A stretch of DNA of 64,000 nt from an uncultured Clostridia bacterium (GTDB lineage: Bacteria > Bacillota > Clostridia > Oscillospirales > Acutalibacteraceae), in contig CAMAZY010000004.1 in NCBI GenBank assembly GCA_945863885.1, positions 1-64,000 on the forward strand, given 5' to 3'. Under the pieces are notes generated by a model. That model saw only the letters and a program-made list of their open reading frames with translations, had not been told where the DNA came from and did not search any database. Below are positions 37,105-47,439 of this stretch, piece after piece. A program made the translations under genes and the position numbers. Position 1 is the stretch's first letter. The number at the start of each line of letters is the position of its first letter.

Positions 37105-38121
37105 TTACCAATTGCGGTCATTATAAGGAGTATCCTGTACACCCTTATTATTGAGCCGTTGTACCATTTTGTCAAGGGTAGGTTTCCACATATTATTAAA
37201 CCATTCGGTTTTACCAAACCATTTTACAAGTGTGGGACTAATTGCATAATATGTATGGATAAAGGCCCTGCCATACCAAGTTTCGGCCAACGTGTCGTCA
37301 CGATAACGACGGAGCGTCCATACCTGTGGGCAGTCATATGAGCCGTATACAGCTGTTGCTACATAGCATCCGCCGGAACTAGTATTAACAGTTGGCGGCG
37401 TATATGAGCTGTCTTTTGCCTTAATTTCGTTCGTAAGTCTCGTAGTTTCTGTAGTGCGATAATTTGCATCAAAAAACTTGCTGTAATTTGAAACGAAACC
37501 ATTTTCGTGTTTCTGTACAGATACAAGTCTATCACTTTCAGAACTAAAACAGTTCTTAAGCGACTTTTCTAACATTGTATAAATAGATTTGGCTGCCACT
37601 ACTCGTTCGCTGCATTCTGCAAATACACCACTTACCGATGAATGCTGATAGTAATGATTTACGGCAACATTTGCAAACATTCCAGCAATTTTCTCAGAAT
37701 AAGTTATGACAGTATCTAAAGCCTTATTCTTCTCTTCTTCATCTTGTATATCAGAAATAAGCTTCATCGTGCTATCAATATTATTTGCAACAGAATAAGC
37801 AGCACTTGAGATGTTCATGATTTTGCACTGCATAGATTGATAGAAAACTTGGAAAAAAGCTGCTTCCCAGTTGTTAGGGTCTTCTTGCAGCACCATACCA
37901 TAATACTTTTCAGCATTTTCACTATTATCACAGTCACGAGCACGACGTGCCAAAATCAACAACTTTTCTGCTTCTTCAGATTTATCAACTTTAACAACCG
38001 TACCAAGCAGTTTTTTAGCTTCTTCTACAGAATACTTTGTGCCGCAGTTTTGGCATACATACATTCCATCTTGTTTAATCAAATCATCGCTGCCGCACAT
38101 TTCACATACCATAGATTTCAT
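37105..38121 (-). CDS. Zinc-ribbon protein with CFI-box-like C-terminal domain
   Basis: 338 residues. The N-terminal zinc ribbon is CEMC...CQNC (about 6-25). It is followed by a TPR-like helical stretch (about 50-90), a helical region, and a conserved C-terminal domain with GGCYVATAVYG, CPQVWTLRRYRD, ETWYGRAFI and SPTLVKWFGKTEWF. This end is common in Clostridia and named after its C[FY][IV]ATAVYG box; its function is not known. AAAGG precedes the ATG. It is expressed from a strong promoter within duplicated leader copy A and ends at its own terminator. Confidence 0.8.
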   Translation of the reverse strand: MKSMVCEMCGSDDLIKQDGMYVCQNCGTKYSVEEAKKLLGTVVKVDKSEEAEKLLILARRARDCDNSENAEKYYGMVLQEDPNNWEAAFFQVFYQSMQCKIMNISSAAYSVANNIDSTMKLISDIQDEEEKNKALDTVITYSEKIAGMFANVAVNHYYQHSSVSGVFAECSERVVAAKSIYTMLEKSLKNCFSSESDRLVSVQKHENGFVSNYSKFFDANYRTTETTRLTNEIKAKDSSYTPPTVNTSSGGCYVATAVYGSYDCPQVWTLRRYRDDTLAETWYGRAFIHTYYAISPTLVKWFGKTEWFNNMWKPTLDKMVQRLNNKGVQDTPYNDRNW

Positions 38122-38172
38122 ATTTGCACCTTTTACCCCCGCACCAATACCATAAAAGTCTGATTACAGTAT

Positions 38173-38377
38173 CGGGAGTTCCTTTCTCTTTAATATTCTG
38201 CAACCATCGAGCCGCTTCGTCCTGTTTGTCGGGCGCCCCTCGGTTTATTACCGTATCGACATAAAGGCGGAGTGCTTCAACGATTTCTTATCAGCGCAAC
38301 CTGATAAGATGTAACTTGATTATACATAAATGCAAGTTAATTGTCAACTATTTTTACAGTTTTTATCAAAAAATCCT
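38173..38377 (-). repeat. Duplicated promoter-leader module, copy A
   Basis: About 205 bp, nearly identical to copy B 774 bp away (38947-39150). On the minus strand it contains a consensus promoter, a hairpin CTTATCAG-N6-CTGATAAG, then about 130 nt. In copy A that stretch is an open frame (starting EIVEALRLYVDTVINRGAP) with no start codon, running into the downstream gene. It precedes the CFI-box gene. The rest of the 38122-38499 gap holds only the next gene's terminator. Confidence 0.85.
38319..38347 (-). promoter_or_regulatory. Consensus sigma-A promoter in leader copy A
   Basis: TTGACA (38342-38347), exactly 17 bp, TATAAT (38319-38324), a perfect consensus. A hairpin begins about 10 bp after the -10 box, at or near the RNA start. 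Confidence 0.9.
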
Positions 38378-38454
38378 ATTTCCTCCAGCTTTCTCACAGC
38401 CGACCAAAAAAGGTAAAAGCACCGACCAAAATCCAAGGAAAACTTCAGACAGAA

Positions 38455-38482
38455 CAAAAAAAGAGCAGGCAAAAACCTGCTC
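38455..38482 (-). terminator. Terminator of the small membrane protein gene
   Basis: A 7-bp stem (38476-38482 with 38463-38469) and seven T on the minus strand, 18 bp past the stop codon. Confidence 0.88.
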
Positions 38483-38499
38483 GATCCATACTTTTTTCC

Positions 38500-38889
38500 T
38501 TACGATTCACGAGGATCATTTGTATAAGTGTTCGGTTGCTGCGCATAAGCATTTGCCTGTGATTTAGCGGCTGCAGCACCTCTATCAGGCAAAGCAATAA
38601 CTAATAAATATCCCACAAGCGGAATATAAAATGCTATTTTTAAATATTTTGTATCTTTATAGCCTTTAATCAGTGCAACAGAATAAAAATATCCAGCAAG
38701 GATAAAATCCACCCAGATTATTGTCACTAAAACCAACGTACCAAGTATACACGGCAAAGCAATAGCAGGTTCTTCATTTGCAATACCAAATATAACAAAT
38801 GCGATACAGCCTGCAATAACAATCAGAAAAGTAAAAAACGAAACATTTTTATACATTTTTTTATCTAAGTCTTTCAGTCTTTTTCTCAT
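38500..38889 (-). CDS. Small membrane protein, unknown
   Basis: 129 residues: a basic N-terminus (MRKRLKDLDKKM), three or four hydrophobic segments (about 17-36, 43-70, 85-100), then a polar Ala/Gln/Asn-rich tail. I do not recognise a family. It is expressed from leader copy B, so it may be co-regulated with the CFI-box gene that follows copy A. A GGGGATTTGAGG stretch lies before the ATG. Confidence 0.7.
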   Translation of the reverse strand: MRKRLKDLDKKMYKNVSFFTFLIVIAGCIAFVIFGIANEEPAIALPCILGTLVLVTIIWVDFILAGYFYSVALIKGYKDTKYLKIAFYIPLVGYLLVIALPDRGAAAAKSQANAYAQQPNTYTNDPRES

Positions 38890-38946
38890 AACCTCAAATC
38901 CCCTTTTGCCCTCTCACAACCTCAGCAAACGTAGACCGTACTATTG

Positions 38947-39150
38947 CGGGAGTTCCTTTCTCTTTAATATTTTGCAACCATCGAGCCGCTTCGTCCTGTT
39001 TGTCGGGCGCCCCCGGTTTATTACCGTATCGACATAAAGGCGGAGTGCTTCAACGATTTCTTATCAGCACAAGCCGATAAGATGTAACTTCATTATACAT
39101 AAATTAAAGTGACTTGTCAACTACTTTTACAATTTCTATCAAAAAATCCT
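38947..39150 (-). repeat. Duplicated promoter-leader module, copy B
   Basis: Direct repeat of 38173-38377. The protein-like frame is broken by a one-base deletion near 39021. The hairpin is kept although its inner bases differ (CTTATCGGCTTGTGCTGATAAG-type). It precedes the small membrane protein gene. Within the 38890-39768 gap, the remainder holds a pseudogene (39241-39488), its terminator, an inverted repeat and the promoter of the large plus-strand gene. Confidence 0.85.
39092..39120 (-). promoter_or_regulatory. Consensus sigma-A promoter in leader copy B
   Basis: TTGACA (39115-39120), 17 bp, TATAAT (39092-39097). Spacer bases differ from copy A while both hexamers and the spacing are kept. 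Confidence 0.9.
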
Positions 39151-39180
39151 GTTACTCCCTGTTTCGTCACAATCGAACCA

Positions 39181-39215
39181 CAAAAAATAAATAGTGCCGC
39201 CGGATGATCCACTAT
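39181..39215 (-). terminator. Terminator of the decayed gene
   Basis: ATAGTG (39210-39215, minus) pairs with CACTAT (39191-39196) and is followed by a T-rich run on the minus strand. Confidence 0.55.
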
Positions 39216-39240
39216 GTAATACGTAAAAGCGGGACTTTGT

Positions 39241-39488
39241 TCACCCTTCGATCATTTCCGGCACAGCGTTTATATTCCCTGGGTCAGCAATTACAAATAA
39301 ATCCGGCTCGTCTTCACCGTCAACCGGACAGCTGTACCGGCTACCGCTGTTTGCAAACGCATAGCGTTTCACCTTGCGGGTATGCCGATGCCGCCGAAAA
39401 CAAGCACCGCCTCCCCTTTCTCGTTGCTGCAGTTCCGGCTTGTGATTTTACCGCTTTCCATATCGATTGTCCCCCCCGTTTCTTTCAT
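39241..39488 (-). pseudogene. Frameshifted small gene
   Basis: From ATG 39488 (AAAGG upstream) a frame reads MKETGGTIDMESGKITSRNC and goes on through EAVLVFGGIGIPAR to a TGA at 39372-39374. One frame over, protein-like sequence resumes as KRYAFANSGSRYSCPVDGED and later DLFVIADPGNINAVPEMIEG before TGA 39241-39243. A single frameshift near 39370 would join them into a protein of about 80 residues. A terminator follows. The family is unknown. A run of seven G near the start could also slip. Confidence 0.4.
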
Positions 39489-39573
39489 AGCGCCTTTTAA
39501 AAACAGAATCTTCAAAAATTTCTAAACAAACGCAAACATTTCTCAATTGTTTTCAATTTATACTATTCGTATG

Positions 39574-39590
39574 TCGTCACTATTTGACGA
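39574..39590. promoter_or_regulatory. Inverted repeat upstream of the reductase gene
   Basis: TCGTCA and TGACGA separated by five bases, about 90 bp upstream of the -35 box of the following promoter. It could be an operator; no regulator is known. Confidence 0.3.
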
Positions 39591-39680
39591 ATCCAAGACC
39601 ATCCCTTTGATTGCTTGCTTTAAGAAATCAGCTTTTCATTTAATAAAATCCTTATTGATTTAACTTGATTCATTTTCAAA

Positions 39681-39709
39681 TTGATTTTGTACACCGTGTG
39701 TGATATTAT
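39681..39709 (+). promoter_or_regulatory. Promoter of the four-domain reductase gene
   Basis: TTGATT (39681-39686), 17 bp, TATTAT (39704-39709) preceded by TGA (extended -10). Confidence 0.7.
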
Positions 39710-39768
39710 GAATCGTAATAAAAAGCCAAGAAGGAGGAAGCCGCAGTTTTCTTGCGGAAACGGAAAGA

Positions 39769-42700
39769 ATGATAAAAGAAGATCTGACGACACTCAAAAA
39801 CTTAAATGAAATGGTGCGTTACGGCGCTGAAAATTTCGGTGAGCGTAATTTTTTAGAGTATAAAAATCCCGACGGCACCATAGCCGCCAAAACCTATGCC
39901 CAATTTAAAGCCTCCTGCGATTCGGCTTGCCTTTGGCTTGCCGAAAAAGGTCTTGACGGCACACACGTCGCTCTTGTCGGTCCGACAAGCTTTGAATGGA
40001 TCACCGGCTATTTTTCCGCCGCGATGACAGGCGGTGCTGCGGTTCCCCTCGCCCCCTCGGAAACGGACGAAATGAACTGCCGGCTGATGGAGTTTGCGGA
40101 CGTAAGCGTTTTTGCTTTCGACAAAAAGCACGAAAGCCTTTATAAGCTTGCAAAAGAAACAGTCGGCTCGATTAAACTGTTTATTTCGCTCGATAACACC
40201 GCAAGCGACAAAGATGTTGTCAACTTCAGCGAGCTTCTTTCTCTTTCCGGCGACTATACCGGCGACCCTGACCCCGATACGATGTGCGCCATTGTGTTCA
40301 CCTCGGGCACAACGGGATTTCCGAAAGGCGTTATGTCGAGCCACAAAAATATGATTTACAGTGCAACAAGCGTTCACGTTGCCTGCCCGACAACAAGAAT
40401 GTTCTGCTGCCTGCCGATTCATCACAGCTTCTGCTTTACGGCGAACATCACCAAGAGCATCGTCCGGGGCAAGACCGTCTGCGTCAATGATTCGCTTGCA
40501 AACCTTGTCAGCGACTTACATCTGTTCAAGCCCGACAGCATTGTTGCCGTTCCGCAGATTGTCAAAAAGCTGATGGGCGGTGCGATCAAGTTTGCCGCTT
40601 CGAAGCCCGAGCTTCCCGAAGAAAAAGCCGCCAATATGTTCTTAGGCGGCAACATCATCGACATCATATCCGGCGGTGCTCCGCTTGAGGCGGCGGCAAA
40701 CGCCCGCTTCAACGCAACGGGTATCCTTGTCTTAAACGGCTACGGCATGACCGAATGTTCCCCGGTTATCGCCAACAACGCCGTCGGCTGTTTCCGTCAC
40801 GGCTCGGTCGGAAAACCCATTCCGTGTATGCAGGTCAGAATCGAAAACGGCGAAATTCTTGTCAAAGGTCCGTCGGTCATGCTCGGCTACTATAAAAACC
40901 CCGAAGCGACCAAAGAAGCCTTCACCGAGGACGGTTTTCTTCATACCGGCGACCTCGGTCACTTCGACGACGACGGCTTTTTGTATGTCACGGGACGGTG
41001 CAAAAACCTGATTCTGCTTGAAAACGGCGAAAATGTTTCGGCGGAAATGCTCGAAGAACAGTTCGCAAACGAGCCTCTTATTCAGGAGGTCATCTGCTAC
41101 GGTGAAAACGGAGCCATCTGCGCCGAGGTTTACTTAAACAAAGCCTTTATCACAGAGAACGGCATCACCGACGAAAACGAAGCCATGACCGCCGTTTTAA
41201 TGCGAATCAATGAAAATCTTGCAAGCTATCAGCGCATTTCAACCTTTAAAATCAGACCGGTTCCGTTTGAGCGTACCTCTTCATCCAAGATTAAGAGAAG
41301 TTCCAAAATGGATGCCGTAAAAAAGGAAATTGTCGAACCTGCCACCGACACCGAAAAGAAAGTCTGCCGGGCGGTCAAGGAGCTTTTACAGCTTCCCGAG
41401 GTCAGCGTCACCGACAACTTTTTTGCAATCGGCGGCGACAGCCTGAACGCCATGGAGCTTGCGGTCAGTCTCAACATCTCCGCTCAGCTGATTTACGATA
41501 AGCCGTTTCTAAATAAGCTTGCCGAGGAAATCGATGCGGCCGGGAACAAGCAAAGCGACAAGCTTGACGGTGTCAACGACATCATCAAGGCGACCGCTCA
41601 CACTGGGAAGAAGCACAGCGGCTACAAGTGTGCACTTCTGACAGGCGCAACGGGCTTTTTGGGCGTGCATATCCTCAAAAAGCTTATCGACAGCGGCGTT
41701 GAAACCTACTGTCTTGTCAGAAGCCGTGAAAAGCTTGACAATCAGCTGAAGTTCTATTTCACCGACTTTGACAGTCCGCTGATTCACGCCGTTACGGGCG
41801 ATATTGAAAAAGAAAAACTCGGTCTGAGCGACAAAAAATACCGTGAACTTGCCGACATGGTTGACACGGTTTTCCACGTTGCGGCAAATGTCCACCACGC
41901 AGGCGATTACGCCGACCTTGAGCGGACAAACGTCACGGGCACGAAAAATGTCATTGACTTTGCGAAAGCAGCTAATGCTGTTTTACAGCACACCTCGACC
42001 GTCAGCGTCCACGGTGCGGCAACGGTCAAGCAGACCAAGTGCAAATCCGTCTTTGACGAGAGCGTGCTTGACATCGGTCAGCGCTATACCGACAACGTCT
42101 ATATCCACAGCAAATACTGCGCCGAACAACTTGTTCTGTCTTCAAGAAAAGACGGACTCGAAGCGAATATTTACCGTATCGGCAACCTCACATGGAGAGC
42201 GAGTGACGGAAAATTCCAGAAAAACAGCGACGACAACGGCTTTTTAAGACGTGTTCATGCGATGCTCAAGCTCGGTCTCGTCAACGAGAACATGGACAAG
42301 TACCCGACCGACCTTACGGCGGTTGACGAGTGTGCCGACGCTTACGTCCGCCTTGCTCTTACGGGGAACGTGAACAAAATCTATCACATGATCAACCCAA
42401 ACTTCCTTCTGACCGAGGATATGTTCCGGCTTCTCGGCGTACCGTACAGACGGGTTTCAACGCTGGAAACGGTAGAGACCGTTTTTGCGAACACTGATGA
42501 CCGGGATATTCACGTTTATATGTTCTATCTCATCATCTCCGGACGTTCGGCGAATATCAAAATGAACAACAGCTATACGGTAAACAGGCTTTCCGAGGTT
42601 GGCTTTACATGGGGCAAGCCCGACAAGGCGTACCTGACCGTTTCCGACTCAGCCGACAGACCGAACGGTCACTGTCTCGACTTTACGCCGTGTAAGCTTA

Positions 42701-43902
42701 AACCGATGAGAACGGCAGGCGGCGTTTTAAATCCGATTCAGAAGCTGACGCTCGGTGTGATGCACGACGCAAAGTTCATCGACAGCGTTCTTCTTCACGG
42801 CGACAAGGCTCTCGACGAGCTAAAAGCCGAAATTCAAAAGGCGAATGTACAAAAGCCGATGTTTATTCTCTACCCCGGTGCGGAAAGACACGAAAAAATC
42901 GCTTCTTTCGTGTCCTCGGTTTCGGCTTCTCCGGTTTTGTTCAGCGGCATTTCAGCCGAACCGACAACCGAAAACACCGACGAAGCGTTAGCGGTCTATT
43001 TCGACAACGGCTGTGACGGCATCGTTGCCGTCGGCGGCGGTTCGGTGCTCGACACGGCGAAAATCACCGCTTTAAGGGCCGCCAACCGTAACGAGGAGAT
43101 CGACGATATCTGTAAAATCGACTCGCTCGCCGCCCCCTGCGTGCCGCTGTTTGCGGTTCCGACCACCTCGGGCACCGGCTCGGAGGTCACCGCGTTTGCC
43201 GTCATCACCGACACCGAGGAGAACAAGAAAAAGCCCTTCGTCAGCGACCGGTTCCAGCCGTTGGCTGTGGCTCTTGACCCGTCGCTTACCGTTTCCGTTC
43301 CGCCGATGAGTACGGCGTATACGGGAATTGATGCGTTGTCGCACGCTGTTGAAGCGGCGGTAAGCTCGTTTGCCTCCTCCTTCCCCGAGGACAAAGCGTA
43401 CTGCGCCAAGGCGGCAAAAAGAATTCTTCATTCTCTCAAAAAAGCGCATGACTGCCCGACCGACCTTGCTTCCCGTGACGAAATGCAGCTTGCATCCTAT
43501 GAAGCCGGTCTTGCGTTCAGAAGAATCGGAACAGGGTATGTTCACGCTGTCGCACACCGTCTCGGCGAATTCTATCATATTCCGCACGGTCAGGCGATTG
43601 CCGCCGTCTTTGTGCCGATCTTAAGAGCAAGTCTCCCCTGCTGTGAAAAGGCTTTGAGTGAGCTTGCAAAAGAATGTGCCGTTTCAAATTCCGACAGCGA
43701 CAAAGAAAACGCAGAAGCCTTCCTTGCGGCGGTCGAAAACCTGATTGCTTCTTTCGGCATTAAGGCGACCGATATTCCGTTTAACGAAGGCGACCTTGAC
43801 GAAATTGTCAGACGTGCGCAGGAGGAAGTGAAGCTGATGGGAGCGCCGAAGCCGTTTTCGGACGATACGCTTCGAAAGCTTATCAAGGAAATCTTCGCAT
43901 AA
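39769..43902 (+). CDS. Carboxylic acid reductase-like A-T-R protein fused to iron-type alcohol dehydrogenase
   Basis: 1377 residues with four parts. First, an acyl-adenylating domain (about 1-515) with the nucleotide loop VFTSGTTGFPKG (176-187), GYGMTE (324-329), HTGDLG (392-397) and a C-terminal SKIK lysine region. Second, a carrier domain (about 525-590) with phosphopantetheine site GGDSL (Ser558). Third, a thioester reductase of the extended SDR type (about 620-955) with NAD(P) motif LTGATGFLG and the YxxxK pair Tyr778/Lys782. Fourth, a group III iron-type alcohol dehydrogenase (about 965-1377) with GGGSVLDTAK (1089-1098) and likely metal ligands Asp1188, His1192, His1259 and His1273. Predicted reaction: carboxylic (perhaps fatty) acid plus ATP to acyl-carrier, to aldehyde, to alcohol. 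It is monocistronic. GGAGG lies 31 bases from the ATG. Confidence 0.9.
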   Translation: MIKEDLTTLKNLNEMVRYGAENFGERNFLEYKNPDGTIAAKTYAQFKASCDSACLWLAEKGLDGTHVALVGPTSFEWITGYFSAAMTGGAAVPLAPSETDEMNCRLMEFADVSVFAFDKKHESLYKLAKETVGSIKLFISLDNTASDKDVVNFSELLSLSGDYTGDPDPDTMCAIVFTSGTTGFPKGVMSSHKNMIYSATSVHVACPTTRMFCCLPIHHSFCFTANITKSIVRGKTVCVNDSLANLVSDLHLFKPDSIVAVPQIVKKLMGGAIKFAASKPELPEEKAANMFLGGNIIDIISGGAPLEAAANARFNATGILVLNGYGMTECSPVIANNAVGCFRHGSVGKPIPCMQVRIENGEILVKGPSVMLGYYKNPEATKEAFTEDGFLHTGDLGHFDDDGFLYVTGRCKNLILLENGENVSAEMLEEQFANEPLIQEVICYGENGAICAEVYLNKAFITENGITDENEAMTAVLMRINENLASYQRISTFKIRPVPFERTSSSKIKRSSKMDAVKKEIVEPATDTEKKVCRAVKELLQLPEVSVTDNFFAIGGDSLNAMELAVSLNISAQLIYDKPFLNKLAEEIDAAGNKQSDKLDGVNDIIKATAHTGKKHSGYKCALLTGATGFLGVHILKKLIDSGVETYCLVRSREKLDNQLKFYFTDFDSPLIHAVTGDIEKEKLGLSDKKYRELADMVDTVFHVAANVHHAGDYADLERTNVTGTKNVIDFAKAANAVLQHTSTVSVHGAATVKQTKCKSVFDESVLDIGQRYTDNVYIHSKYCAEQLVLSSRKDGLEANIYRIGNLTWRASDGKFQKNSDDNGFLRRVHAMLKLGLVNENMDKYPTDLTAVDECADAYVRLALTGNVNKIYHMINPNFLLTEDMFRLLGVPYRRVSTLETVETVFANTDDRDIHVYMFYLIISGRSANIKMNNSYTVNRLSEVGFTWGKPDKAYLTVSDSADRPNGHCLDFTPCKLKPMRTAGGVLNPIQKLTLGVMHDAKFIDSVLLHGDKALDELKAEIQKANVQKPMFILYPGAERHEKIASFVSSVSASPVLFSGISAEPTTENTDEALAVYFDNGCDGIVAVGGGSVLDTAKITALRAANRNEEIDDICKIDSLAAPCVPLFAVPTTSGTGSEVTAFAVITDTEENKKKPFVSDRFQPLAVALDPSLTVSVPPMSTAYTGIDALSHAVEAAVSSFASSFPEDKAYCAKAAKRILHSLKKAHDCPTDLASRDEMQLASYEAGLAFRRIGTGYVHAVAHRLGEFYHIPHGQAIAAVFVPILRASLPCCEKALSELAKECAVSNSDSDKENAEAFLAAVENLIASFGIKATDIPFNEGDLDEIVRRAQEEVKLMGAPKPFSDDTLRKLIKEIFA

Positions 43903-43915
43903 GAACAGCATACAA

Positions 43916-43960
43916 AATCACCGTAACAGCCTTGCCGCCGTTACGGTGATTTCTTTTATT
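43916..43960. terminator. Terminator after the four-domain reductase gene
   Basis: A 12-bp stem (43916-43927 with 43940-43951) is followed by TTCTTTTATT on the plus strand. The convergent exopolysaccharide transcript also ends here. Confidence 0.9.
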
Positions 43961-44309
43961 CCGAAAAGAACTGTCTGCACTTTTCTTCTATCCATGCTTT
44001 AACAAGCGCACGGCTGTCTTCCTCAAGTTCAAAAACCTCGGTTTCGACCGCATCGGGGTCGGTGTTTTCGAAGCTTTTATAGCCGGGGTAAACCGAAGCT
44101 TTCAATATTTCGGTTTCGGTTTCCTCCCCGTTATCTTGCGGTTCGCCCTTTATCTTTTCGATTCGTATCACATAATTGAAAAGCTTCCGGCCGAAAAAGC
44201 CCGTTTCGCCATCCGTTCCGCACGAACCGTAATAGGTATTATACGTTCCGCCGATTCTTGATCCGCCGATGAGCCAGTCAAGCCGCGGCACATTGATGGT
44301 ATACTCCAT
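43956..44309 (-). CDS. Hypothetical protein at the end of the exopolysaccharide operon
   Basis: 117 residues, acidic, no membrane segment. The N-terminal part is Gly/Tyr-rich (LIGGSRIGGTYNTYYGSCG), and the C-terminal part is helical with Glu clusters. I do not recognise a family. Its ATG overlaps the stop codon of the tyrosine kinase gene (TAATG) with GGGAGG upstream, so the two are translated together and it may modulate the kinase. Confidence 0.7.
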   Translation of the reverse strand: MEYTINVPRLDWLIGGSRIGGTYNTYYGSCGTDGETGFFGRKLFNYVIRIEKIKGEPQDNGEETETEILKASVYPGYKSFENTDPDAVETEVFELEEDSRALVKAWIEEKCRQFFSE

Positions 44310-45970
44310 TACTCTTCCTCCCCTTCGCTTTTGATTCTTTCCTTGATAAACTCGCCGCCGTCCGTTCCGCCGTAGCCGTACCCATAGCCGTAGCCCTTGG
44401 ACTCACCGCCGTAGCCGTATCCGTAGCCTTTCTTCTTGTCGGAATGACGTCCGTAGCCGTAGCCGTAACCCGATCCGTAGCCCGAATAGCCGTACTTTTT
44501 GCCGTAGCGTTTGCCGTAATAGCCGTATTTCTTACCGTAATAGGAGCCGTAACTGTAACCGTAATAGCTGCCCTTATAGCCCTCGAAGCCCTCGCTTACA
44601 GCGTTAAAGACAAAGCCCATTATGGTTGCATTGACGTCATAGACAAACTTGATGGACTCTTTCACCTTTTCAACCGGCGTGTAATCCTGACGTAAAACAA
44701 AAATCGTTTCGTCGGCACGGCTCATGATCTGCGCCGTATCGGATACAAGCGCTGTCGGAGCAACATCTATAATGACGTATTCATAATTTTCTTTTACATA
44801 ATCGAGAAGCGTGTCGTAATCTTCATGCTGATACTTTTTGGCCTTACCGTTTCCGGCAAAGAAAATATGAAGACCGTAATCGGATTTTGTGATGATATCC
44901 GCTATCTCACATTTTCCGGAAATCAAATCAATAATTCCCGGTTTATCCTCCGGGGCGCTGAGATATTTCTGAAGACTCTTTCTTGCAAGATCCATGTCAA
45001 GAAGCGCAACTTTTTTTCCGCTTTGGGCGATTGAAAGAGCAAGATTATACGACACTGTCGTTTTTCCTTCGCCGGGGCAGGCGCTTGTAACCGCAATAAT
45101 TTTTTTCTTATGCCGGTCGAGATGATTGACCACTCGCCGTTTCAAATAGCGGAACGCTTCCGAGAAGCCTGCATGCTTTTGCGAAATCGTAACCATAGTT
45201 TCGGCGTTGTTCCTGCGCTTTTTGATATTGACCCACGGAACCTCGACAAGACATTTCTGGTTGAGCTTCTTTTTGATGTCGTCACGCTGTCTGACAGTGT
45301 TTCTTGTCAGCGCATAGACAGCCATGATCAACAAGGAAAGAAACAGACCCGCCGCCGTGGCGGTCACGATTTCTTTTTTGCAGGAAAAAGGATTGGTCGG
45401 CTCGGTCGGCATTTTCGGCTTCGTAAAAATCGACATCTGCGTTTCACCGATGATGTACTGAGCAAGTCTCGGATAATGTTCAATGACCGCTTCGAGAAGA
45501 TTGTACGCATCCTCCGGAGAAGAGCTTGTCACGGTAATCGTGAAAATCGGCGCCGATTCAACGTTATTCTTCGCCGAAATCGTTCCGTTCATGGCATTTG
45601 CGCCAAGCTGATCGTACAAGATAGAGCGCATCGTTTCGCTGTTGATAATATAGCTGAAGGTTTTGGAAAGCTGTTCGGCAATGCCCGAATTATAGTAAGA
45701 AGAAAACGAGGAAGCGCCCGATGCGATAGAACTCGTGTTTTCCGCCGAAATAGAAAAAGAAGCCTGCGCAGTATAATAAGGCTTATATTCCTTTTTGCAA
45801 TAGAAATAAGCGGCAACACAAAACACAGCGACAAAAATAACCGCTGTCCACCAAAAGCGCTTGAACGCTTTGAATAAGTCAACCAAAAAAACATCAAGCT
45901 TTATGAAATCGCCGAGATAAGTTTCCTCTCCGGTATCAGGAGACTTTTGCACCGTGGTTTCGTCCTGCAT
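44309..45970 (-). CDS. Wzz-BY-kinase with tyrosine/glycine-rich tail
   Basis: 553 residues: an N-terminal membrane helix (about 40-58), an extracytoplasmic Wzz-like domain, a second helix (about 203-222), then a cytoplasmic BY-kinase domain with Walker A SACPGEGKTT (296-305), Walker A' VALLDMD (321-327) and Walker B YVIIDV (398-403). The tail (about 465-535) holds about two dozen Tyr in Gly/Lys context, the usual autophosphorylation site of such kinases but far richer than normal. It controls chain length and export of exopolysaccharide. GGAG lies six bases before the ATG. Confidence 0.92.
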   Translation of the reverse strand: MQDETTVQKSPDTGEETYLGDFIKLDVFLVDLFKAFKRFWWTAVIFVAVFCVAAYFYCKKEYKPYYTAQASFSISAENTSSIASGASSFSSYYNSGIAEQLSKTFSYIINSETMRSILYDQLGANAMNGTISAKNNVESAPIFTITVTSSSPEDAYNLLEAVIEHYPRLAQYIIGETQMSIFTKPKMPTEPTNPFSCKKEIVTATAAGLFLSLLIMAVYALTRNTVRQRDDIKKKLNQKCLVEVPWVNIKKRRNNAETMVTISQKHAGFSEAFRYLKRRVVNHLDRHKKKIIAVTSACPGEGKTTVSYNLALSIAQSGKKVALLDMDLARKSLQKYLSAPEDKPGIIDLISGKCEIADIITKSDYGLHIFFAGNGKAKKYQHEDYDTLLDYVKENYEYVIIDVAPTALVSDTAQIMSRADETIFVLRQDYTPVEKVKESIKFVYDVNATIMGFVFNAVSEGFEGYKGSYYGYSYGSYYGKKYGYYGKRYGKKYGYSGYGSGYGYGYGRHSDKKKGYGYGYGGESKGYGYGYGYGGTDGGEFIKERIKSEGEEE

Positions 45971-46014
45971 TGAAAACTCCGTTTCCTTTCCGGCCGCTTT
46001 GTTTTTGCGCAGCC

Positions 46015-47439
46015 TTATGTGTTTGAATAATAATAAGCACCGTAATTGTCGTATTTTTTAGACTTTGGAAGCTTGTCCGACAGCAGGTCGCTTTGTATCG
46101 TCCGGTAATCGTTCAGAATACAGCCCGCAAAGTAAGCGTCGGAATCGGTAAGTAGGTCAATCGTATCATTGATTTCGGCAATAAAGGTTTTATCCTGTCT
46201 GACGATAAGAAGCGATGCATCAACCTGATCGATGATGTTTTCGGCGTCCGCCGTAAGCGACATCGGCGGCGAGTCGATGATAATATAATCATACTCCTCT
46301 TGAAGCTTTTTCAGCATTTGCGAAAACCGGCTCCCACCCAACAGCTCAAAGGCGAACTGATAGCTGTTTTTTCCGTCAATGATACGAAGTCCGCTTTCGG
46401 TGTCGGTCTTGATGATATCTTCAAGTTCCGCCTTTCCGAGAAGATAGTTTCCGAACTCGTTATACGTCGTATTGACGGCGGGATTGAAAGTCTTATAAAC
46501 CGAGGGTCTTCTAAGGTCGATGTCGATCAGAACCGTCTTGTAACCTTTTTTCGAAAGATTGAGGGCGATATTCGTTGAAACGGTCGTTTTCCCCTCGTGT
46601 TCGTCAACACTTGTAATCAGTACGCTCTTGATTCCTCTTGAGCTTTTGAGATATTCAACCTTCGTCGAGATTCTGTTAATACTCTCGACAAAAGCGTAAC
46701 TGCAAAACGGATTGAAAATGTTGATTCTCAGCGGCTGCTTGTTTTTCTTGCTGATTTCTATCATCTGACGGCTCGGCTTTTCGTGATAAATCGTTCCGAA
46801 CAGACTTCCGTCAACATACTGTTCAATATCATTTTCCTGTTTTACGGTGTCCCGTAAATAAGAGAACAGCGCCAACAGAAGTCCGATCATGGCCGCCGAA
46901 GCAAGACCGGCCAGAATCGTCTTTTGCGAAACGGAGACCGTATTGTTCGGAAATGTTGCAACCGCCGGTGTTTTCAGAATGTTGATATAAACATCCTGAA
47001 ACAGGTTTTCGGCAAAAACATTTTCGTAATTTTCGAGAACCGCAACCACTGTTTTATACGAATCGACAGGCGACCGGCTCACGGCACTGATGGTAATCAG
47101 ATTCGTTTCCGGAACAGCCTGAGCCGTTACGTTCGCCATGTTGAAGTCATGAACATTTTCATTGATGATCTTCGCCATAACGTCACTTTTGAAGATGTTC
47201 TGGAACACCCCCGCCACCTCAATCGTTTTGGTGATATTGGAGGTGATATAGCCGTTCGAGTCACGCACATTGACCGCAACGGTTGTGCTGCTCTGATACG
47301 TCGGCTTGTAAGCATAACCGTAATATGTCTTGGTTCCCCAAAATCCGATCAGAAAAGCAAGAACAATCACCCAGAAATTATAAAGTATGTCCATCACAAT
47401 GGTATACAGATTGATGTTGGAAAGCTTCAGTTCTTTCAT
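46015..47439 (-). CDS. Second Wzz-BY-kinase
   Basis: 474 residues with the same plan: a Wzz domain between two membrane helices (about 16-37 and 174-192), and a BY-kinase domain with SVDEHEGKTT, VLIDIDLRRPS and YIIIDSPP. The short tail KKYDNYGAYYYSNT contains a modest tyrosine cluster typical of the family. Unlike the neighbour, both chain-length and kinase parts look canonical. It overlaps the upstream Ig-like gene by 4 bp (ATGA). A cognate phosphatase gene (CpsB type) is two genes upstream. Confidence 0.93.
   Translation of the reverse strand: MKELKLSNINLYTIVMDILYNFWVIVLAFLIGFWGTKTYYGYAYKPTYQSSTTVAVNVRDSNGYITSNITKTIEVAGVFQNIFKSDVMAKIINENVHDFNMANVTAQAVPETNLITISAVSRSPVDSYKTVVAVLENYENVFAENLFQDVYINILKTPAVATFPNNTVSVSQKTILAGLASAAMIGLLLALFSYLRDTVKQENDIEQYVDGSLFGTIYHEKPSRQMIEISKKNKQPLRINIFNPFCSYAFVESINRISTKVEYLKSSRGIKSVLITSVDEHEGKTTVSTNIALNLSKKGYKTVLIDIDLRRPSVYKTFNPAVNTTYNEFGNYLLGKAELEDIIKTDTESGLRIIDGKNSYQFAFELLGGSRFSQMLKKLQEEYDYIIIDSPPMSLTADAENIIDQVDASLLIVRQDKTFIAEINDTIDLLTDSDAYFAGCILNDYRTIQSDLLSDKLPKSKKYDNYGAYYYSNT

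Follow-up and report, generated by a model that had tools for sequence, protein, structure and literature searches.

A four-domain fusion protein from an Acutalibacteraceae genome as a candidate one-chain reductase of carboxylic acids to alcohols

A gene of 1377 codons in a 64,000-nucleotide stretch of DNA from an uncultured Clostridia bacterium (Acutalibacteraceae; GenBank assembly GCA_945863885.1, contig CAMAZY010000004.1, positions 1 to 64,000 of the forward strand; hereafter the window) encodes an adenylation (A) domain, a carrier (PCP) domain, a thioester reductase (TR) and an iron-type alcohol dehydrogenase (ADH) on one chain. The product is predicted to be a single-polypeptide carboxylic acid reductase that continues to the primary alcohol, a reading to which a probability of about 0.7 is assigned. 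Its support is drawn from sequence, and comprises the four-domain chain, the catalytic positions, the ratios of nonsynonymous to synonymous substitution (dN/dS), a pair of adjacent genes for the unjoined parts in a genome of another family (G334) and a phosphopantetheinyl transferase (PPTase) found once in the genome. No description of an A-PCP-TR-iron-type ADH fusion was found among the listed titles and abstract openings of the mostly open-access literature searched, several of the searches being aimed at neighbouring topics. The window derives from a draft genome of 2.6 Mb that is 98% complete.

Domain architecture and proposed reaction

The gene and the parts of its product are as follows.

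39769..43902, + strand: whole gene, A-PCP-TR-linker-ADH, one open frame of 1377 codons
39829..40893, + strand: adenylation domain (AMP-binding), residues 21-375, with A3 FTSGTTGFPKG and A5 NGYGMTE
41005..41331, + strand: adenylation C-terminal subdomain, residues 413-521, with invariant Lys507
41359..41475, + strand: carrier domain, residues 531-569, with phosphopantetheine serine Ser558 in GGDSL
41638..42342, + strand: thioester reductase core (NAD_binding_4), residues 624-858, with TGATGFLG, Thr744, Tyr778 and Lys782
42640..42780, + strand: TR-to-ADH linker, residues 958-1004, conserved on alignment
42793..43893, + strand: iron-type ADH, residues 1009-1375, with GGGS at 1089-1092 and metal-ligand positions Asp1188, His1192, His1259 and His1273

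The four-domain order read in the original prediction is borne out by six Pfam matches, all above their curated cut-offs: from N- to C-terminus AMP-binding at 21-375 (4.6e-58), AMP-binding_C_3 at 413-521 (2.6e-06), PP-binding at 531-569 (4e-07), NAD_binding_4 at 624-858 (1.9e-43), Fe-ADH at 1009-1171 (8.2e-41) and ADH_Fe_C at 1182-1375 (7.3e-37). The roles of the motifs in all four domains are presumed to carry over from their families. The A3 loop, the A5 and A8 motifs and the carrier serine are kept in every alignment row that covers them, Ser558 standing in GGDSL or GGSSL (14/14 covering rows), and Thr181, Gly183, Glu329, Asp395, Arg410 and Lys507, the last of which we take to be the A10 lysine, show no variation across 14 rows, among which is the neighbouring ligase described below. 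The TR carries GxxGxxG and YxxxK, and its motifs occur in all covering rows: TGATGFLG (TGATGYLG in G334), an STxS segment and YIHSK (YIRSK in G334). Its best alignments are with 6VTJ, presumably an archaeal carrier-reductase structure, and with AusA and MxaA, the Thr and YxxxK positions being kept.

The ADH aligns with methanol, 1,3-propanediol and lactaldehyde dehydrogenases and with other iron-type ADHs, again with the metal-ligand positions kept; the ligand roles of Asp1188, His1192, His1259 and His1273 are presumed from FucO-type enzymes. GGGS, GTGSE, D-x3-H and a His pair 14 apart ending in PHG are present in all 12 genomes that carry the fused gene. The cofactor and metal motifs earlier described as intact thus hold up on alignment, and no catalytic residue of the dehydrogenase or the reductase was found to be lost. 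At the position of FucO Asp39, a residue which we take to disfavour NADP, the 12 fused ADHs have Thr (seven), Ser (three), Cys (one) or Asp (one, in G029), whereas FucO and the two genus paralogues with a readable motif have Asp (five further paralogues gave no readable motif). Ser, Thr or Cys at this coenzyme position in 11 of the 12 fused ADHs is compatible with the use of NADPH.

In the proposed reaction, the A domain would use ATP to convert the acid to an acyl-adenylate, and the acyl group would pass to the phosphopantetheine arm on Ser558 of the PCP. The TR would then reduce the thioester with NADPH and release an aldehyde. Using NAD(P)H, the fused ADH would turn this aldehyde into the alcohol, so that less of the reactive intermediate escapes. 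The net reaction would be R-COOH + ATP + 2 NAD(P)H -> R-CH2OH + AMP + PPi. We infer each of these chemical steps, together with the direction and coenzyme of the ADH, any channelling or proximity effect and the substrate. The domains and motifs support the acid-to-alcohol conversion first suggested from the window alone.

Relation to known enzymes

The first three domains and their order are shared with carboxylic acid reductases (CARs; A-PCP-R, as in 5MSC and the fungal NcCAR), which are likewise carrier-dependent and reduce a thioester to an aldehyde. CARs end at the R domain, whereas the present protein continues with a linker and an iron-type ADH. Moreover, its A domain is nearer to acyl-CoA ligases than to CARs (6.5e-31 against 1.4e-23), and the score is far short of the cut-off of the NCBIfam CAR model. 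AdhE is likewise a fusion of an acyl-thioester-reducing domain with an iron-type ADH, and its ADH part matches that of the fused protein. AdhE, however, starts from acyl-CoA and uses an N-terminal aldehyde dehydrogenase without ATP or a carrier, in contrast to the free acid activated by an A domain and the TR of short-chain dehydrogenase/reductase (SDR) type predicted here; no aldehyde dehydrogenase domain was found in the fused protein by Pfam.

The closest counterpart in design is the eukaryotic ATRR (A-T-R1-R2), which is described in PMC11050029 as converting glycine betaine into choline on a single chain, its second reductase being YdfG-like; there it is reported from fungi and plant-parasitic nematodes, and atrr genes are called exclusive to eukaryotes. 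Both proteins place a second, C-terminal reductase after A-T-R1 and lead from acid through aldehyde to alcohol on a single chain. The R2 of ATRR is nevertheless a YdfG-like short-chain dehydrogenase and is unrelated to the Fe-ADH and ADH_Fe_C domains of the fused protein; its substrate is glycine betaine. The two are a convergent design and not the same family. Two further systems share part of the plan. Myxobacterial ElbD is described in PMC9131029 as combining FAR1-like reductase, acyl-CoA synthetase (ACS), acyl carrier protein (ACP) and acyltransferase parts and is tied to ether lipids, although fatty alcohol was not detected with it. It resembles the fused protein in having acyl activation, carrier and reductase on one multidomain chain, and differs in its N-terminal reductase and its acyltransferase, no iron-type ADH being named in that text; in the fused protein the reductase is C-terminal to the carrier and an acyltransferase is absent. 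Marinobacter MaFAR forms fatty alcohol with one protein, starting from acyl-CoA or acyl-ACP (PMC7744569), and, unlike the fused enzyme, has no A or carrier domain in the available description.

The original prediction had set the protein apart from CARs as enzymes that release an aldehyde. That contrast overlooked ATRR, which already takes an acid to an alcohol on one chain (PMC11050029), and also a fungal CAR whose reductase domain over-reduces aldehydes (PMC10168641). The overall one-chain reaction is therefore not new; what has no precedent among the papers listed is the bacterial version ending in an iron-type ADH. The fused enzyme would work like a CAR combined with an alcohol dehydrogenase, and its sequence suggests strict membership of neither the CAR nor the ATRR family. 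If the proposed reaction is correct, the protein would provide an ATP-driven bacterial route from free acid to primary alcohol on one chain, built from a CAR-like module and an iron-type ADH, and would be a convergent counterpart to ATRR, which leads one to ask what alcohol these bacteria require. A practical use is conceivable, since CAR applications lose reactive free aldehydes to side reactions.

Carriers within the genus and integrity of the fusion

The fused gene was found in 12 of 34 genomes of the genus, that of the window included (match at E 1e-110 or better), and among 59 genomes searched both halves of the chain were matched at high identity only in these 12. The complete chain lies in one frame in nine carriers, again counting the window's own. 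In G023 the first 64 residues are missing at a contig end, with the junction between TR and ADH spanned, so that the junction falls inside one open frame in ten of the 12. In the remaining two, G020 and G029, the chain is interrupted by contig ends close to the junction, and the pieces correspond to residues 1-1025 and 1021-1377 (G020) and to 5-999 and 1011-1375 (G029). Compared with the window protein, G020 is 92% identical in the N-terminal part and 85% in the ADH part; G023 and G027 are 67-68% identical, seven others 52-54%, and G029 57% in one piece and 49% in the other.

These genomes bear directly on whether the frame could be a misassembly of two genes, as the original prediction had allowed, or could have been joined by chance. 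The contig ends in G020 and G029 would fit such an artefact. The junction is nevertheless read through in one frame in ten carriers, nine of them besides the window gene and at 52-68% identity to it, and is bridged by a conserved 40- to 47-residue linker, which in eight relatives lacks seven residues and which is absent from both A-PCP-TR relatives considered below. An artefact is accordingly ruled out by independent genomes for all practical purposes, its probability being negligible.

In the comparison of the window gene with that of G020 (Nei-Gojobori), dN/dS was 0.057 for the A domain, 0.066 for the PCP, 0.067 for the TR, 0.090 for the linker and 0.139 for the ADH; between G012 and G011, by the same method, it was 0.117 for A-PCP, 0.137 for the TR and 0.194 for the ADH. 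The low values in every domain of these two measurable pairs indicate that the joined gene is maintained, with constraint weakest in the ADH. Decay of the domains was also considered, and was rejected on the intact motifs and the low dN/dS in the two pairs.

Searches beyond the genus and unjoined relatives

The same four-domain order, which the original prediction had proposed to look for in other genomes, was found in the 12 genus genomes and nowhere else in samples of the order, class and phylum. A full-length query against 394 genomes of the order (E 1e-100; best 2 candidates per genome scored, as in the class search) returned no further fusion, the three other matches being A-PCP-TR proteins in G069 and G334 and an A domain in G314. 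The class search (391 genomes, E 1e-105) gave five A-domain matches and no fusion, and a search of the family of G334 (148 genomes, E 1e-105, best 4 candidates scored) gave G334 itself, two A-domain matches and no fusion. Since distant fusions could escape such strict full-length searches, the TR alone was searched at E 1e-25, with up to 5 or 6 candidates scored per genome. Counting the window's own gene in each case, 17 places in 16 of 398 genomes were found in the phylum sample and 10 places in 10 of 295 genomes in the order sample, which missed G334; neither sample spans all species. At none of the 25 other TR places was an ADH attached, among frames of at least 250 codons in flanks of up to about 1.5 kb, a limit below which shorter, cut-off ADH pieces would be missed. 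The chain continues for 417 residues after the end of the TR query in the fused protein, compared with 7-125 residues at those 25 places.

A contig scan for six short exact peptide patterns returned three loci, which belong to two metagenome-assembled genomes. In phages, a query of residues 882-1074, spanning the junction, had no match, and none of the 83 stretches of viral contigs that fit the TR-ADH alignment pattern encodes a relative. Among plasmids 3023 records matched, but no single place in any of them covers 80% of the query. Separate A and Fe-ADH genes of Rhizobiales are among the top plasmid matches, and in two regions that were read (L115:4974-7704 and L116:5001-7745) genes for an adenylate-forming enzyme and an iron-type ADH stand with those for a thioesterase and an aldehyde dehydrogenase. 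No thioester reductase is listed in either region, and both look catabolic.

In G334, which belongs to another family of the same order, the parts occur unjoined: the gene for an iron-type ADH of 389 residues (L056:6591-7760) is followed after 18 bases by an A-PCP-TR gene in the same orientation (L056:7779-10688). The ADH is thus the upstream gene in G334, in contrast to its place as the C-terminal domain of the fusion. In a tree of 21 ADHs that of G334 groups with the fused ADHs (98/96), although this tree is weak evidence, given its long-branch warnings and the origin of all seven paralogues, FucO being counted apart, from one genus; by identity, which carries little signal, the lone ADH is 37-43% to the fused ADHs and 39-42% to the genus paralogues. 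G069 has an A-PCP-TR gene at L055:4529-7501, with no ADH-like open reading frame (ORF) in the 17.5 kb read, in which six neighbours were scanned with Pfam. The natural unjoined version in G334 would offer a clean comparison of fused and separate enzymes.

Evaluation of alternative explanations

Several findings weigh against the acid-to-alcohol reaction or limit the strength of its support. The protein scores below the curated cut-offs of both relevant NCBIfam models, with 173.4 of 1300 bits for carboxylic acid reductase and 174.5 of 213.35 bits for thioester reductase. The ADH part evolves fastest, and comparison with G027 was saturated at synonymous sites except in the linker (0.117), giving no domain values. 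The carrier G029 has Asp at the coenzyme position. The fused gene is also patchy, being present in 3 of 15 genus genomes with at least 90% completeness and at most 5% contamination, and it is therefore dispensable. In addition, iron-type ADHs can act as oxidases.

One alternative is that the TR alone carries out a four-electron reduction to the alcohol, the ADH recapturing escaped aldehyde or having a structural or regulatory role. There is precedent for such chemistry in PMC10168641, where the reductase domain of a fungal CAR turns benzaldehyde and octanal into alcohols and four-electron reductions are ascribed to some bacterial SDR-like enzymes and to terminal domains of non-ribosomal peptide synthetases (NRPSs); a peptidyl-alcohol-forming reductase domain has also been modelled (PMC2835699), and the MxaA and AusA reductase domains are among the matches of the TR. 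A redundant domain would, however, be expected to decay, whereas the ADH motifs are kept in 12/12 carriers and the dN/dS of the ADH is low in two pairs. The unjoined G334 likewise retains an ADH gene beside its A-PCP-TR gene, although G069 does not. On balance this alternative is considered unlikely.

A slightly less probable explanation is that the ADH works in the oxidative direction, so that the enzyme handles an aldehyde derived from an alcohol, or balances redox between two substrates, and makes no alcohol. Iron-type ADHs are reversible, and the pairing of separate A and Fe-ADH genes with aldehyde dehydrogenase and thioesterase in the catabolic-looking clusters of the two Rhizobiales plasmid regions would suit this view. 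Both regions nevertheless list an aldehyde dehydrogenase in place of a thioester reductase, and in the fused protein an ATP-driven TR would furnish aldehyde on the same chain. Moreover, 11 of the 12 carriers are without the Asp at the coenzyme position that presumably favours NAD. Reduction of the acid through to the primary alcohol by successive TR and ADH steps is thus preferred to either alternative.

Substrate, neighbouring ligase and phosphopantetheinyl transferase

The A4 stretch of the fused A domains reads HH/SH-x-x-C-x-T, with no acidic residue before the A4 helix positions in the 12 carriers. This is, we assume, the site of Asp235 in amino-acid-activating NRPS domains, and the missing acidic residue makes an alpha-amino acid an unlikely substrate of the fused enzyme. 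An acyl chain without an alpha-amino group is the likeliest substrate on the sequence of this stretch, and the FadD-like ligase described next is a further hint to the substrate. A medium- or long-chain fatty acid is plausible, the odds for a fatty acid being a little short of even. In the unjoined A-PCP-TR proteins of G334 (L056) and G069 (L055) the A4 stretch has Glu (HHTYELT and HHTFELT), and their substrate may differ from that of the fused proteins.

A gene for a FadD-like AMP ligase of about 556 residues adjoins the fused gene in 9 of the 12 carriers. In G004, G009, G011, G012, G015, G019 and G022 it precedes the fused gene in the same orientation, the matches being about 80-150 bases apart, and in G023 and G029 the two genes converge. 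The window's genome (G000), G020 and G027 have a relative of 58-59% identity on another contig, partial in G027. Among the matches listed, all 12 carriers have a ligase relative at 48% identity or more, and the sole non-carrier to do so is G008 (72% complete), with a partial relative of 56% at a contig end. The ligase query (E 1e-120) found some match in 30 of the 34 genus genomes, the remainder being at 46% identity or less. Shared ancestry within one genus may explain part of the association between ligase and fusion. The genomes of the genus (1.4 to 2.7 Mb) each gave 10 to 25 first-look candidates for the fused query, and many of those listed are FadD-like ligases, some of them clustered, which suggests an expansion.

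A LytTR DNA-binding protein is encoded next to the FadD-like ligase or a partial relative in three genomes, at L107:2263-3072, L108:4945-5748 and L110:4691-5488. The L107 copy has a weak SnoaL-like front by Pfam, and the L108 and L110 copies were assigned by 82% and 55% identity. This protein perhaps regulates the ligase.

The PF01648 search (positive in 10/14 controls) detected one PPTase in the genome, a protein of 216 amino acids whose nearest model is AusB, at 74.7 of 225 bits and hence below the model cut-off.

Possible use of the product

The products proposed earlier, namely fatty alcohols for ether lipids, wax-like compounds and detoxified aromatic acids, are guesses. The wax synthase family PF03007 had no match in the window's genome, a result without weight because the search was likewise silent in 14/14 controls. 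For ether lipids, a PF02913 search of the genome returned one protein of 583 amino acids (L114:5137-6888, on contig C7), which matches structures of alkyl-dihydroxyacetone phosphate (alkyl-DHAP) synthase (AGPS) at 3.6e-70 (2uuu) and 8.3e-53 (the peroxisomal 4bby), the next-best enzyme being D-lactate dehydrogenase at 7.5e-25. It keeps the SHHHG stretch; its best NCBIfam model is GlcD, far under the cut-off (133.8 of 567.9). Its gene has neighbours resembling genes for an FGGY sugar kinase and GlpO/GlpA-like oxidoreductases, none above a model cut-off.

This AGPS-like protein is a possible user of fatty alcohols, which are taken by AGPS (PMC9131029). Since homologues of AGPS are found in many bacteria (PMC11868695), one in this genome is not telling on its own; the accessible text of PMC10076029 contains nothing on AGPS. 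In an ether-lipid pathway, the fused enzyme would convert a free fatty acid to the alcohol on one chain, and AGPS would then exchange the alcohol for the acyl group of acyl-DHAP. If true, the animal pathway would here have a counterpart that needs neither oxygen nor a fatty acyl reductase (FAR). In PMC9702350 the ether lipids of such bacteria are said to derive from diacyl lipids that are reduced, with no part played by DHAP or long-chain alcohols. The AGPS-like gene elsewhere in the genome lends ether-lipid use weak, indirect support, and a supply of fatty alcohols for alkyl ether lipids through AGPS in this probably anaerobic clostridial lineage is regarded as doubtful.

Gene and flanking sequence

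Four further features flank the coding sequence.

39681..39709, + strand: promoter-like site TTGATT-17-TATTAT with TG preceding the second hexamer, a sigma-70-like consensus match only
39731..39737, + strand: Shine-Dalgarno-like AAGGAGG, 31 bases 5' of the ATG
39741-39757, + strand: weak hairpin CCGCA/TGCGG between AAGGAGG and the ATG
43915..43952, + strand: terminator-like hairpin with a 13-bp stem and T-rich tail, between convergent genes

The fused gene appears to stand alone in the window because the nearest sizeable ORFs, at 38500-38889 and 43956-44309, are both on the opposite strand; a 98-codon ORF on the + strand at 39204-39500 was not regarded as a gene. It had been described as monocistronic, with its own promoter and terminator. 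It does appear to stand alone here, and the terminator-like hairpin folds with a z of -6.2 (0/200 shuffles as good). The promoter call is weak because nine such matches occur in 38800-44400 on both strands against 4.2 expected, and in the seven relatives with the upstream ligase the fused gene trails a same-strand gene at about 80-150 bases between matches. The region between AAGGAGG and the ATG folds no better than shuffles (z 0.07). A pattern scan of 38800-44400 gave 6 terminator-like sites, no more than chance would give (8.4 expected), and no Rfam family reached its gathering score in 38000-46000.

A perfect 12/12 sigma-70 consensus, TTGACA-17-TATAAT, lies at 39092-39120 on the - strand, directed away from the fused gene. 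On the other side, the window contains at 44309-47439 (- strand) two consecutive genes whose sequences read as resembling Wzz/tyrosine-kinase exopolysaccharide proteins, the first of which (44309-45970) has a long Gly/Tyr-rich tail at its end.

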